64,000 nt of DNA from Egicoccus halophilus (GTDB lineage: Bacteria > Actinomycetota > Nitriliruptoria > Nitriliruptorales > Nitriliruptoraceae), in assembly GCF_004300825.1 (NCBI RefSeq), contig NZ_CP036250.1, forward strand, positions 1,612,001 through 1,676,000, written 5' to 3'. A model generated the notes under the pieces. That model saw only the letters and a program-made list of their open reading frames with translations, ran no database searches and had not been told where the DNA came from. Positions 25,290 to 36,733 of the stretch are shown here, in pieces; position 1 is the first letter of the stretch; each line of letters starts with the position of its first letter. The position numbers and the translations under genes are program-made.

Positions 25290-26507
25290 ATGGATGCGTT
25301 GTTCGTAGGACACGATTGGGCAGAGGATCATCACGACGTTCACCTGCAGGACCGCGAGGGTCGGCAGCTCGCGCAGGTGCGACTAGCTGACGGGGTCGAA
25401 GGGATCGCCAGGTTCCATGCCCTGATCGCCGAGCACGCCCAGGACCCGGCCAGCGTGGTGATCGCGACAGAGACCGACCGGGGCCTGTTCGTCGCCGCGC
25501 TGGTGGCTGCCGGCTACCGGGTGTTCGCGGTGAACCCGGTCTCGACCGCCGCCTACCGGACACGGCACTCGACCTCGGGTGCGAAGTCCGACCCCGGGGA
25601 CGCCAAGGTGCTAGCCGACCTGGCCCGCACCGATGTGCGCAACCACCGGCCCGTGGCCGGCGACAGCGAGCTCGCCGTCGCGGTCAAGGTGCTCGCACGG
25701 GCCCATCAGGGGCTGGTGTGGACCCGTCAGCGGCAGGCCAACCAGCTGCGCTCGACGTTGCGGGAGTTCTACCCCGCTGCACTCGAAGCGTTCGACGATC
25801 TGGCGTCGGGTGACGCGCTGGCGCTCTTGGCGGTTGCGTCGACGCCTGAGCAGGGCCGGCGGCTGTCACGATCCAAGATCGCCGCGGCACTCCGGCGTGG
25901 GGGCCGGCAACGCAACATCGACCGGCGCACCATCGAGATCCAGACCGCCCTGCGCGCCGAGCATCTCCACGCCCCCGCCATCGTCGCCGACACGATGGGC
26001 GAGGTGGTGTCCTCGCTGGTCGCGGTCATCGCCACGATCCAGACCCAGATCAGCCAGCTCGAACAGCAGTTGAACGAACGTTTTGAGGCGCACCCGGACG
26101 CCAAGATCATCCGTTCCCTGCCAGGACTGGGGATGATCCTCGGCGCCCGGGTGCTCGCAGAGTTCGGCGATGACCCGAACCGCTACGACACCGCGAAGTC
26201 TCGCAAGAACTACGCCGGCACGTCACCGATCACCAAAGCCTCCGGCAAACACCACGTCGTGCTCGCCCGCTACGCCCGCAACAAACGCCTGGCTGACGCC
26301 TGCTACCAGTGGGCCTTCTCCGCCATCACCGCCAGCCCCGGCGCACGCGCCTTCTACGACCAACGCCGCGCCGCGGGCGACACCCACCACCGCGCCCTGC
26401 GCGCCCTCGGCAACCGGCTCGTGGGCATCCTCCACGGCTGCCTACGCCACCACACCCTCTACGACGAACACATCGCCTGGGCACACCGGCTCACCCTGGC
26501 TGCTTGA
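25290..26507 (+). CDS. IS110-family transposase (DEDD recombinase)
   Basis: 405-residue RNA-guided recombinase. The N-terminal RuvC-like DEDD domain (about 1-165) begins FVGHDWAEDHHDVHL with the first Asp, has VVIATETDRGLFVAALVAAGY with the Glu, and ends near SGAKSDPGDAKVLADLAR with the paired Asp residues. A coiled coil (about 245-275; TIQTQISQLEQQLNERF) links to the C-terminal Transposase_20 domain, with SLPGLGMILGARVLAEFGD and the SRKNYAGTSPITKASGK segment that contains the catalytic serine region. All conserved blocks are in frame, so it looks functional. The ATG at 25290 follows GGGAGGA. Confidence 0.95.
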   Translation: MDALFVGHDWAEDHHDVHLQDREGRQLAQVRLADGVEGIARFHALIAEHAQDPASVVIATETDRGLFVAALVAAGYRVFAVNPVSTAAYRTRHSTSGAKSDPGDAKVLADLARTDVRNHRPVAGDSELAVAVKVLARAHQGLVWTRQRQANQLRSTLREFYPAALEAFDDLASGDALALLAVASTPEQGRRLSRSKIAAALRRGGRQRNIDRRTIEIQTALRAEHLHAPAIVADTMGEVVSSLVAVIATIQTQISQLEQQLNERFEAHPDAKIIRSLPGLGMILGARVLAEFGDDPNRYDTAKSRKNYAGTSPITKASGKHHVVLARYARNKRLADACYQWAFSAITASPGARAFYDQRRAAGDTHHRALRALGNRLVGILHGCLRHHTLYDEHIAWAHRLTLAA

Positions 26508-31809: not shown

Positions 31810-31886
31810 GCGGATGTAGCTCAGTTGGCTAGAGCGCCACCTTGCCAAGGTGGAGGTCGCGAGTTCGAATCTCGTCATCCGCTCCA
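31810..31886 (+). tRNA. tRNA-Gly (anticodon GCC)
   Basis: 77-base tRNA including an encoded CCA end. The acceptor stem GCGGATG / CATCCGC, the D-loop with AGCTCAGTTGG, the anticodon stem CCACC / GGTGG around TTGCCAA (anticodon GCC at 31844-31846), and a T-arm with GTTCGAATC all fold cleanly. The discriminator base is T followed by CCA. It decodes GGC and GGT glycine codons. It is followed at once by a hairpin and then by a truncated gene. Confidence 0.97.
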
Positions 31887-33616: not shown

Positions 33617-33761
33617 CGCTCGGCCCGTAGCGGGCATGGGCGCGAACGGGTCGCCGCGGTCCGGACTGGTTGCGGAACCGACGCTCGCGTGGGGCCGTCC
33701 TCGGGCGCGGATGGCTACCGGCCTGCCCGGACGGCCCCGCCCGGGCGCGGTGCGGCGGGCC

Positions 33762-33767
33762 TAGGCT
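33762..33767 (+). promoter_or_regulatory. -10 element (TAGGCT) of the Asp-rich peptide operon
   Basis: TAGGCT at 33762-33767, 34 bases before the peptide ATG at 33802. The leader contains a very strong GAGGAGG ribosome binding site at 33790-33796. Confidence 0.55.
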
Positions 33768-33801
33768 CGGTGCATCTCTCAGCGACTTCGAGGAGGCACC
33801 G

Positions 33802-34020
33802 ATGCGAGTGCAGGGTCTGACCGACGCCGACATCGAGACCGTGGGCGGGACGGCGACCAGCCCGACCGCCGACGTCCAGGACGGCGACGCCACCGACGTC
33901 CAGGACGGCGACACGGGCGACGCCGACGGTGCCGACGCCGACGGCAGCGACGGTGACGCGACCGACACGGCCGACGGTGACGCCACCGACGGTGCGGACG
34001 CCGACGGGACCGACGCCTGA
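33802..34020 (+). CDS. Asp-rich repeat peptide with Gly-Gly leader (putative RiPP precursor)
   Basis: 72-residue peptide. The first 16 residues, MRVQGLTDADIETVGG, look like a short leader of the kind ending LTDxDLExVxGG in double-glycine peptides. The remaining 56 residues use almost only Asp, Ala, Gly and Thr (with a few Ser, Val and Gln) in irregular repeats of the type DADG, DGDATD and VQDGD; there is no Cys, Lys, Arg or aromatic residue after the leader. A perfect ribosome binding site (GAGGAGG) and TAGGCT promoter precede it, and the JmjC oxygenase gene starts two bases after its stop. The most economical reading is a substrate peptide for the two downstream redox proteins. A role as an acidic metal-binding peptide is also possible. 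Confidence 0.7.
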   Translation: MRVQGLTDADIETVGGTATSPTADVQDGDATDVQDGDTGDADGADADGSDGDATDTADGDATDGADADGTDA

Positions 34021-34021
34021 C

Positions 34022-35188
34022 ATGACGACCAGCACCTCGTCCCTGGCGCGCCTGGTCGGGGATGCTCGGGCCTTCCTGGACGACGTGTTCGGGAAGGCCC
34101 CGTTGCACATTCCGGCCGGCGCCCCCGACGTCTTCGACGACCTGTTGGGGCTCGACCACGTCGACGACATCGTCGCCACCGCGGGGTTGCGCGCCCCCTC
34201 GTTCCGGCTGGTGAAGGACGGGGCCACGGTGCCGTCCTCCCGCGTCACCCGGCGCGTGCGGATCGGATCGCGCCCGGTCGACGACCTCGCCGACGTCGCC
34301 GCCGTGCACGCGGCCTTCGCCGACGGCGCCAGCGTGGTGCTGCAGGGCCTGCACCGCTCGTGGCGACCCGTCGCCGAGCTGTGCCGCGCCCTCGAGGCCG
34401 AGCTCACCCACCCGGTGCAGGCCAACGCCTACCTCACGCCACCGGTGGCACAGGGCCTGCACCTGCACGAGGACCCGCACGACGTGTTCGCGGTCCAGAC
34501 CCACGGTGTCAAGCGCTGGGTCGTGCACCCGCCCGGGCAGGACGAGCCGTGGGACCTCGAGCTCAAGCCCGGTGACGTGCTCTACCTGCCGGCGGGCACC
34601 CGACACGCCGCGCAGACCGTCGAGCTGCCGTCCCTGCACCTGACGATCGGTGTGCGGACGATGCGGTGGTCGACGCTGGCCCGCCGGGTGTTCGACCGGG
34701 CGTTGACCGAGGTGGATCTCGACGCCACGGTGCCGGCCGGGTGGGCGAACGAGCCCACGGCCCACCGCGAGCAGCTCGCCGCCGGTCTCGAGGCGCTGGC
34801 GGACGCCCTGCGTGCCGGGGACGCCGAGGCCGCCCTGACCGACGCGGCCGAGGACTTCTGGACCAACCGCGTCCCGGATCGGCGCGGTGGCCTCCGGGAC
34901 CTGCTCGCACTGGACGAACTCGACGACCTCACGCCGCTGCGCGTGCGTGCGGGCACCGGTGCCCGGGTGGTCGCGGCGGCCGACGCGGTCGAGTTGGTCC
35001 TGGCCGACCGCCGACTGCGGCTGCCGGCCGCTCTGTCCGACACGCTGGGCCGGATCGTCGCGCAGGACCGGCTCCGGCCGGTCGATCTCGACGACCAGCT
35101 CGACGAGGGCAGCCGCTTGGTGCTCTGTCGTCGGCTGGTACGGGAGGGGCTGCTCACGCTCGACCGGGGAGCCGAGGACCGGGCGTGA
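34022..35188 (+). CDS. JmjC/cupin 2-oxoglutarate-Fe(II) oxygenase (ROX-like)
   Basis: 388-residue non-haem iron oxygenase of the cupin_4 / ribosomal-oxygenase type. The iron triad is intact: His149 and Asp151 in LHEDPHDVF and His195 in GTRHAAQT; the spacing and PHDVFAVQTHGVKRW match the YcfD pattern. A dimerisation helical part follows, and the C-terminus (about 330-385; LGRIVAQD, RLVREGLLTL) is the winged-helix found in ROX enzymes. Known relatives hydroxylate Arg or His in ribosomal proteins. Here the gene is wedged between the Asp-rich peptide (one base away) and the sucrase-ferredoxin gene (four-base GTGA overlap), which points to the peptide as substrate. That assignment is inference. 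Confidence 0.88.
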   Translation: MTTSTSSLARLVGDARAFLDDVFGKAPLHIPAGAPDVFDDLLGLDHVDDIVATAGLRAPSFRLVKDGATVPSSRVTRRVRIGSRPVDDLADVAAVHAAFADGASVVLQGLHRSWRPVAELCRALEAELTHPVQANAYLTPPVAQGLHLHEDPHDVFAVQTHGVKRWVVHPPGQDEPWDLELKPGDVLYLPAGTRHAAQTVELPSLHLTIGVRTMRWSTLARRVFDRALTEVDLDATVPAGWANEPTAHREQLAAGLEALADALRAGDAEAALTDAAEDFWTNRVPDRRGGLRDLLALDELDDLTPLRVRAGTGARVVAAADAVELVLADRRLRLPAALSDTLGRIVAQDRLRPVDLDDQLDEGSRLVLCRRLVREGLLTLDRGAEDRA

Positions 35189-36078
35189 CCGGGCGTTGCG
35201 CCATGGGCTCGCGCGCCCGCGGGGAGCGGCCGTTGGGCACCGCCTCACGGGCACGACGGTGGCTGCTGCTCGAGCAACCCGGCCCGTGGGGCCGCGACGC
35301 GGTCGCGGAGTCCGACCTGCCGCCGTCGGTGGCCGCCCACCTGGAGGCGGTGGCGCGCGAGCTGCCGGCCCGGGTCCTGCTGCTGCGGCGTCCGGGCGGG
35401 GAGCGGCCGTTGGGCACGGAACGCCGGCTGTACGCGGGCGTCACGACAGCGCACGGCAGCTGGCTCGAGGCGCTCGAGCTCGACCACGTCGACGACGTGC
35501 TCGACCTCGACCTGCAGGGGCTGCGCGAGGGCACCACGGTCGGGGGCGTGCGGGTGATCGATCCGCTCTACCTCGTGTGCACCAACGGCAAGCACGACCC
35601 CTGCTGCGCCAAGTTCGGCCTGCCCGTCGCGCAGGAGCTCGCCGAGGTGGTGGGGCAGCGGGTCTGGGAGTGCTCGCACGTGGGCGGTGACCGGTTCGCC
35701 GGCAACCTCGTGTGCCTGCCCGACGGGCTGTTCTACGGGCAGCTCGACCCCGCCAGCGCCCGGACCGTCGTGGCGGCCCACGAGGGTGGACGCATCGAGC
35801 TGCGCCACTTCCGGGGTCGTTCCTGCCACGCCTTCCCGGTCCAGGCGGCCGAGGTGCTGGTACGGGAGCGGCTCGACGTGCAGGGCACGGACGCGATCGA
35901 GGTGGTGGACGTCGAGCGGCAGGGCGACCGGCACGTCGTGCGGTTCCTCGAACCGGGTGGCGGGCGGCTGCGCGCCGAGCTGGTGACCGCACACGACACC
36001 GAGCCGGTGCCGCTCACCTGCCACGGCGGGCCGGCCCGGGCGCCACGCTACGAGCTCGTCGACCTGCGGTCCGAGTGA
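35185..36078 (+). CDS. sucrase-ferredoxin-like (Apd1 family) [2Fe-2S] protein
   Basis: 297-residue thioredoxin-fold ferredoxin of the Suc_Fer-like family. Recognisable blocks: LVCTNGKHDPCCAKFGLPVAQ with Cys132, Cys140 and Cys141; VWECSHVGGDRFAGNLVCLPDG with Cys163 and His165; HFRGRSCHAFPVQAAEVLVRE. The yeast member Apd1 binds a [2Fe-2S] cluster with two Cys and two His. A redox-partner role for the upstream oxygenase is plausible. The GTG at 35185 overlaps the upstream stop (GTGA); ATG at 35203 is an alternative. A duplicated nine-base block encoding GERPLGT occurs at about residues 13 and 72. The downstream alkB gene has its own promoter. Confidence 0.9.
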   Translation: MTGRCAMGSRARGERPLGTASRARRWLLLEQPGPWGRDAVAESDLPPSVAAHLEAVARELPARVLLLRRPGGERPLGTERRLYAGVTTAHGSWLEALELDHVDDVLDLDLQGLREGTTVGGVRVIDPLYLVCTNGKHDPCCAKFGLPVAQELAEVVGQRVWECSHVGGDRFAGNLVCLPDGLFYGQLDPASARTVVAAHEGGRIELRHFRGRSCHAFPVQAAEVLVRERLDVQGTDAIEVVDVERQGDRHVVRFLEPGGGRLRAELVTAHDTEPVPLTCHGGPARAPRYELVDLRSE

Positions 36079-36092
36079 CGACGCACGGTGAG

Positions 36093-36114
36093 TCGAACGG
36101 ATGTTCGATAGGCT
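36093..36114 (+). promoter_or_regulatory. LexA (SOS) box fused to -10 element of alkB-like gene
   Basis: TCGAACGGATGTTCGA at 36093-36108 is a perfect 16-base match to the mycobacterial/actinobacterial SOS box TCGAAC-N4-GTTCGA. It abuts TAGGCT at 36109-36114, which is followed by a seven-base spacer and the ATG at 36122. LexA bound here would block RNA polymerase directly. Strong evidence that the gene is DNA-damage inducible. Confidence 0.85.
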
Positions 36115-36121
36115 GGGCCGC

Positions 36122-36733
36122 ATGAGCGACTTCGCCTGGCAGAGCTCACTGTTGGGGGCCTGTGCCCCGAGCGTGGACGAGGACTTCGACGCCCTCGTGC
36201 GCACCGAGCTGTCCGCCGGGGCCTGGGTCGACCACCTGCCGGGATGGTTGCAGGGGGCCGACGAGGTGTTCGCCACGGCACTGCAGGAGCTGCCGTGGGG
36301 GCAGCGCACCCAGCGGCTCCACGGGCAGGATCTGCTGCAACCGCGGCTGACGGCCAGCATCCCGGTCGCCGACCCGCCGGCGGGGCTCGAGATCCTGCCC
36401 CGGATCGGACGACTGCTCGACGCACGCTACGGCCGACACTTCGAGCGGGTGGGCGCGAACCTCTACCGCGACGGGCGCGACTCGGTGGCCTGGCACGGCG
36501 ACCGCATCGCCCGCGACCTGCCGCAGGCAGTGATCGCCATCGTCTCGCTCGGCGAGCCGCGGACCTTTCGGCTCCGGCCGCGCGACGGGGGCGCCAGCAT
36601 CGGGTTCTCGCTCGGTGCCGGGGACCTGCTGGTGATGGGCGGCAGCTGTCAGCGGACCTGGCAACACACGGTCCCCAAGGTCGCCAGCGCCGGGCCCCGG
36701 ATCAGTCTGACCTACCGTCACGCCTACCCGTGA
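36122..36733 (+). CDS. alkB: AlkB-like 2-oxoglutarate-dependent dioxygenase
   Basis: 203-residue Fe(II)/2-oxoglutarate enzyme of the AlkB family, expected to demethylate alkylated DNA or RNA bases. The nucleotide-recognition lid precedes NLYRDGRDSVAWHGDR, which contains the substrate-specificity segment and the iron-binding His-x-Asp; the second iron His is in TWQHTVPK and the 2-oxoglutarate Arg in RISLTYRHAY. The ATG at 36122 is leaderless behind a LexA box. This separates it functionally from the preceding peptide operon. Its 3' end overlaps the convergent OpgC-like gene by 32 bases. Confidence 0.93.
   Translation: MSDFAWQSSLLGACAPSVDEDFDALVRTELSAGAWVDHLPGWLQGADEVFATALQELPWGQRTQRLHGQDLLQPRLTASIPVADPPAGLEILPRIGRLLDARYGRHFERVGANLYRDGRDSVAWHGDRIARDLPQAVIAIVSLGEPRTFRLRPRDGGASIGFSLGAGDLLVMGGSCQRTWQHTVPKVASAGPRISLTYRHAYP

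Follow-up and report, generated by a model that had tools for sequence, protein, structure and literature searches.

JmjC-type enzymes are already known from RiPP pathways. In biphenomycin-type pathways, the JmjC/cupin enzymes BipG and PbsQ hydroxylate a core ornithine (PMC12707348, PMC12257519); there, hydroxylation is one tailoring step among those of several enzymes and is directed at a single Orn made by arginase. RRE-JmjC (PF08007) fusions appear in a 2025 update of RRE-Finder, which also says that bacterial relatives occur in RiPP-like contexts (PMC12710340); the fusions in the main text of that paper are fish and algal proteins, for which no precursor, Asp-repeat peptide, or Suc_Fer partner is given. 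The third group of relatives comprises NO66, MINA53, and YcfD, ribosomal oxygenases (ROX) with an HxD...H iron triad.

The locus described here, from Egicoccus halophilus, consists of genes for a small Asp-rich peptide, a JmjC oxygenase, and a Suc_Fer-like protein. Like the biphenomycin-type pathways, it includes a JmjC-type 2-oxoglutarate (2OG) oxygenase that is predicted to act on the core of a ribosomal precursor; however, at most loci this oxygenase is the sole recognizable modifying enzyme, and Asp-rich repeats make up the core. Like the RRE-JmjC fusions, it joins a JmjC_2 domain to a strand-strand-strand-helix-helix-helix domain, and it shares with NO66, MINA53, and YcfD the fold over the whole length, the triad, the 2OG-type residues, and a winged helix, but it is only about 20% identical to the latter enzymes, is found beside, and tracks, a small peptide, and is not known to have a ribosomal protein as its substrate. 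In the open-licence literature, which was the scope of our search, neither the Asp-repeat peptide nor the three-gene cassette was found to have been described. We consider the cassette a candidate new RiPP class, and most likely one that makes an undescribed family of modified acidic peptides.

Organization of the Locus and Its Upstream Region

The window, i.e., the whole stretch of 64,000 nucleotides that was analyzed, belongs to the 3.98 Mb, single-contig genome of a high-GC actinobacterium. The cassette comprises the following features (window positions):

33725–33736, + strand: GCCCGGACGGCC, putative −35 or regulatory element (aligned upstream regions of congeneric loci)
33762–33767, + strand: TAGGCT, possible −10 hexamer, its position kept in the genus
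33790–33796, + strand: ribosome binding site GAGGAGG (sequence)
33802–34020, + strand: peptide ORF, 72 aa (read from the sequence)
33802–33849, + strand: peptide leader MRVQGLTDADIETVGG, motif L-x-[DE]-x-[DE]-[IM]-x-T (conserved among homologous peptides)
33850–34020, + strand: Asp-rich repeat core TATSPTADVQDGDATD...DADGTDA plus stop (sequence, peptide comparison)
34022–35188, + strand: JmjC_2/ROX-type Fe(II), 2-oxoglutarate oxygenase, 388 aa (Pfam, conservation, model)
35185–36078, + strand: Suc_Fer-like protein with thioredoxin-like ferredoxin domain, 297 aa (Pfam, model)

A preliminary description of this DNA had reported tight coupling of the three genes and a ribosome binding site before the peptide, both of which are confirmed on the sequence; the oxygenase ATG (34022) is located one base past the peptide stop, and the oxygenase stop codon (35186–35188) is part of a four-base overlap with the Suc_Fer gene, which starts with GTG at 35185. 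The strong promoter also reported could not be substantiated, as a scan upstream of the peptide ORF found no σ70 consensus and TAGGCT and the upstream GCCCGGACGGCC are all that is present. The latter element recurs upstream of the cassette in congeneric genomes and could be the signature of a promoter class or regulon; it is not unique to the cassette locus, with 19 exact copies in the genome (6 for a reversed control). Putative IdeR/DtxR, Zur, and CsoR boxes, represented by consensus strings, matched upstream of the peptides no better than in shuffled sequence.

Only the peptide, oxygenase, and Suc_Fer genes recur widely between genera in the neighborhoods examined (i.e., the window, 17-kb neighborhoods from 20 genomes, and two further loci). 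The lack of a protease or transporter, already remarked on for this locus, extends to these neighborhoods, in which no conserved protease or exporter was found; this is no bar to a RiPP pathway, because host proteases can serve.

Pairing of Peptide and Oxygenase across Actinobacteria

Oxygenase homologs were found in 36 of 61 relatives and in 58 of 396 genomes sampled from the phylum; ordinary ROX-like paralogs are counted in the second figure. An Asp-rich ORF was present directly upstream of the oxygenase at 52 of 54 homologous loci, representing approximately 17 actinobacterial families; the test called for an Asp-rich, low-complexity C-terminus ending just before the oxygenase and made no use of the leader motif. 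Since only 1 of 346 other long neighborhood ORFs passed the same test (and that one without the leader motif), the pairing of peptide and oxygenase is not due to chance. One of the two misses represents a run of N (L023) and the other a peptide outside the composition filter (L087); both show the leader motif by eye. A later search covering another family found the peptide at 20/20 loci and a Suc_Fer gene at 18/20, with four of these loci coming from genomes seen before. The preliminary description had named a conserved leader with a variable Asp-rich core as support and the lack of a conserved upstream peptide in relatives as evidence to the contrary; the peptide is present at nearly all loci, and across the phylum the leader is common while the cores are lineage-specific. 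The cassette in this respect shows the arrangement expected of a RiPP pathway, with a short precursor gene beside the modifying enzyme, a conserved leader, and a distinct core.

In the tree, the enzymes associated with a peptide group together (4 label changes, compared to 11.3 after shuffling), and one of the two main core types described below (type B) tracks a single enzyme clade with 99/99 support. ROX-like JmjC paralogs in other actinobacterial genomes fall mostly outside the peptide-bearing groups and are not accompanied by a peptide.

Leader and Core of the Putative Precursor Peptide

The 72-residue Egicoccus peptide (MRVQGLTDADIETVGGTATSPTADVQDGDATDVQDGDTGDADGADADGSDGDATDTADGDATDGADADGTDA) shares its leader motif with peptides that have completely different cores. 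The strict pattern occurs in 40 of 52 leader zones, as compared to 0.7% of shuffled zones, and the motif or a close variant occurs in 55 of 57 curated peptides, a set whose selection partly relied on a looser form of the motif. Two type-B peptides (L051 and L081) do not carry it. The leader had been described as ending in Gly-Gly, which holds for the Egicoccus peptide but not as a conserved feature, as congeneric peptides show VGTAT or VGTTT at the leader/core junction and others VP, QG, or VW.

Type-A cores, including the Egicoccus one, are built from DGDATD, DADGTDA, and similar units and vary in length; many of them, again including that of Egicoccus, lack His altogether and contain few Asn residues, if any. 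Type-B cores, found in one actinobacterial family (f29) and some others, usually consist of three copies of GEGPADGGSNPxGHDGGADGTA and are nearly invariant among genera; their His and Asn are near-invariant, with GHDGG and SNP present in nearly every copy. Single variants include GDAAGAGAGDAS repeats in G017, DDENLDAPGEHSQDTGDE repeats in G164, and ADGTDQGVxGGTYGPRDA repeats that follow a leader of the usual type in G050 (L076/L092). At one locus (L054 in G188), an oxygenase of the type-B clade is preceded by an Asp/Glu/Gln-rich peptide with neither leader motif nor repeats. Asp accounts for at least 5% of each core (57/57) and for 28% of core residues overall, and in the 57 curated peptides is mostly followed by Ala or Gly; Gly, Ala, and Thr likewise occur in every core, while His and Asn occur in some only, and Cys is absent from all 57. 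All peptides are of low complexity, carry a net negative charge of 13 to 43, and had no NCBIfam match.

Codon-level comparisons indicate that the core is under purifying selection. Among congeneric peptides, dN/dS was approximately 0.13–0.33 for the core and 0.08–0.15 for the leader, with few sites in each; type-B repeat units from nine genomes differed by 165 synonymous and 31 non-synonymous codon differences, and repeat copies inside one gene by 103 and 15, respectively. This excess of synonymous changes shows that the repeats are maintained as protein and are not merely recent DNA duplications; together with the control ORFs, these tests rule out a low-complexity artefact or wrong reading frame.

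The JmjC Oxygenase

The oxygenase matches JmjC_2 in Pfam (E = 3e-20) and has no NCBIfam match. The iron triad reported previously (His149, Asp151, and His195) is intact and invariant in 54 homologs, as are K164, N135, Y137, and T139, with K164, N135, and T139 representing 2OG-type residues; R62, Q133, Q159, and others are likewise common to these homologs. The AlphaFold model (pLDDT 94.8) aligned over its whole length with NO66 (Z = 29, 367 residues, rmsd 5.0), followed by MINA53 (Z = 26) and YcfD (Z = 18–19), and NO66 was also retrieved by a profile search on the sequence (E = 5e-38). The protein thus shows the structural hallmarks of ROX enzymes, i.e., a JmjC domain with HxD...H, a helical domain, and a winged helix. 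R62 is a candidate substrate-binding residue, because it is located in or beside a gap of the NO66 alignment.

In the predicted model, the C-terminal winged helix (residues 306–380) consists of strands 306–308, 315–318, 322–326, and 331–335 and helices 336–347, 353–356, and 362–374, an order of strands and helices that matches the one defining the RRE in PMC12710340. Comparison of this domain with PqqD-type RREs by hhalign did not yield a match (E = 0.099, probability 0.6%); RREs are known to diverge past the point of sequence detection.

The Suc_Fer Protein

The third protein matches Suc_Fer-like (PF06999) with E = 3.4e-21 and 76.6 bits (Pfam cut-off 34.9), and part of its model (pLDDT 95.3) matches the Aquifex thioredoxin-like [2Fe-2S] ferredoxin (probability 1.00, target TM approximately 0.7, E approximately 0.005). 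It shares the Pfam family and this ferredoxin-like domain with Apd1/Aim32. The motif of Apd1 is HxGGH; the cassette protein, in contrast, carries C-x7-CC ... HxGGD, with H165-x-G-G-D169 invariant in 44 homologs. As the second His is missing in all of these, a bis-His [2Fe-2S] site of the "Apd1-type," the label used in the preliminary description, is not supported. Besides C132, C140, H165, and D169, the invariant residues include three Cys beyond those of Apd1/Aim32 (C5, C141, and C279).

The Suc_Fer gene adjoins the oxygenase gene at 46 of the 52 loci where the downstream sequence allowed this to be assessed. No Suc_Fer match was found anywhere in the genomes G247 and G314 (100% complete) and G050 (93%), all of which carry the peptide and oxygenase; Suc_Fer is therefore not essential to the cassette, and an obligate role of the ferredoxin is not supported. 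In one genome (G118; L083:8480-10027), Suc_Fer is fused to a SAM-dependent methyltransferase domain, possibly representing a second peptide modification.

Proposed Function and Alternative Explanations

We consider it fairly probable that the cassette is a minimal peptide-modification system composed of a leader-bearing precursor, a JmjC enzyme that hydroxylates its Asp core, and a Suc_Fer partner. In the precursor encoded by the small gene, the motif L-x-D-x-D-I-x-T would mark the leader for recognition, and the Asp-rich repeats would form the core; the oxygenase, with its NO66/YcfD fold, would bind the leader, perhaps through the winged-helix domain with its RRE-like order of strands and helices, and would oxidize the core repeatedly, the likeliest reaction being C-3 hydroxylation of Asp in D-G and D-A units. 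Suc_Fer, common in these cassettes but not indispensable, would act as redox partner, perhaps holding the enzyme iron in the ferrous state, and the leader would presumably be cleaved off. Judging from sequence comparisons, the peptide is most likely the substrate hydroxylated by the oxygenase, and Asp is the best candidate target, because it is the prominent reactive side chain present in every core, while His and Asn are present in some only.

Asp is not the sole candidate target, given that Gly, Ala, and Thr occur in every core and that His and Asn are near-invariant in type B, and it is possible, if doubtful, that the oxygenase modifies the peptide to a product other than hydroxy-Asp (e.g., hydroxy-His or hydroxy-Asn in type B, an oxidative cross-link, or the result of other 2OG chemistry). 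NO66 and MINA53, the nearest relatives of solved structure, hydroxylate His, which counts against the Asp reading, the GHDGG and SNP of nearly every type-B copy would offer such an enzyme its residues, and 2OG-oxygenase macrocyclization in RiPPs is the subject of work cited in PMC12710340. However, both core types are served by one enzyme family, in which the active-site residues do not vary, and many type-A cores lack His and have little or no Asn. The three-domain fold shared with NO66 and YcfD would also suit an ordinary ribosomal oxygenase acting on a ribosomal protein, with the acidic peptide representing a separate small protein such as its regulator or chaperone; this is unlikely in view of the strict pairing with the peptide, the common leader motif, the agreement between core type and enzyme clade, and the position of the peptide-less ROX-like paralogs, mostly outside the peptide-bearing groups. 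The gene context argues for a substrate other than a ribosomal protein. Most improbable of all is that the peptide works without modification, as an acidic buffer for metals or as a disordered scaffold, and binds the two proteins, which would form a redox or oxygen-sensing pair; while the strong negative charge and low complexity of every peptide and the ferredoxin-like domain of Suc_Fer would fit such a role, the division into a conserved leader and a repeat core is the layout of a peptide that undergoes modification, and the boxes of iron, zinc, and copper regulators sought upstream of the peptides were not found.

Given that no exporter is conserved and that the type-B core hardly varies, the product may be used by the cell itself; such conservation is closer to that of a house-keeping molecule than to that of a variable RiPP of the antibiotic type, and would imply a physiological role shared among genera, not chemical warfare. 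The product could remain inside the cell as an acidic ligand for metals, although metal binding is speculation. More broadly, one may tentatively picture a phylum-wide RiPP class, a rather doubtful extension at present, in which a ROX-type JmjC enzyme with a ferredoxin-like partner makes a poly(β-hydroxyaspartyl) iron or calcium ligand and the winged helix binds the leader; if true, the winged-helix domain common to ribosomal oxygenases would link ROX enzymes and RREs, which would suggest a purpose for this domain in ribosomal oxygenases. JmjC enzymes would also move from late tailoring steps to the role of sole modifiers. A precursor-enzyme pair in approximately 17 actinobacterial families represents a ready test case for new peptide chemistry.

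Other Features of the Neighborhood

A gene encoding an AlkB-like 2OG-Fe(II) oxygenase (36101–36733, + strand) is located directly downstream of the cassette; it is kept in the genus only and was therefore rejected as a fourth member. A phage origin was not supported by any match in phage records, and the search for a plasmid origin returned just partial, low-identity matches to ROX-like cupins, mostly from Streptomyces; a role in anti-phage defence was likewise set aside, with no PADLOC match. Within the window, a tRNA is located at 31810–31883, and an Rfam match (83 bits) to the actinobacterial sRNA Ms_AS-4 at 26117–26198 on the − strand. Outside the window, at a distance of approximately 82 kb, a stretch of 6 kb encodes three PqqD-like (RRE) domains (G000:C1:1758202-1764014), possibly representing a separate RiPP or related cluster.
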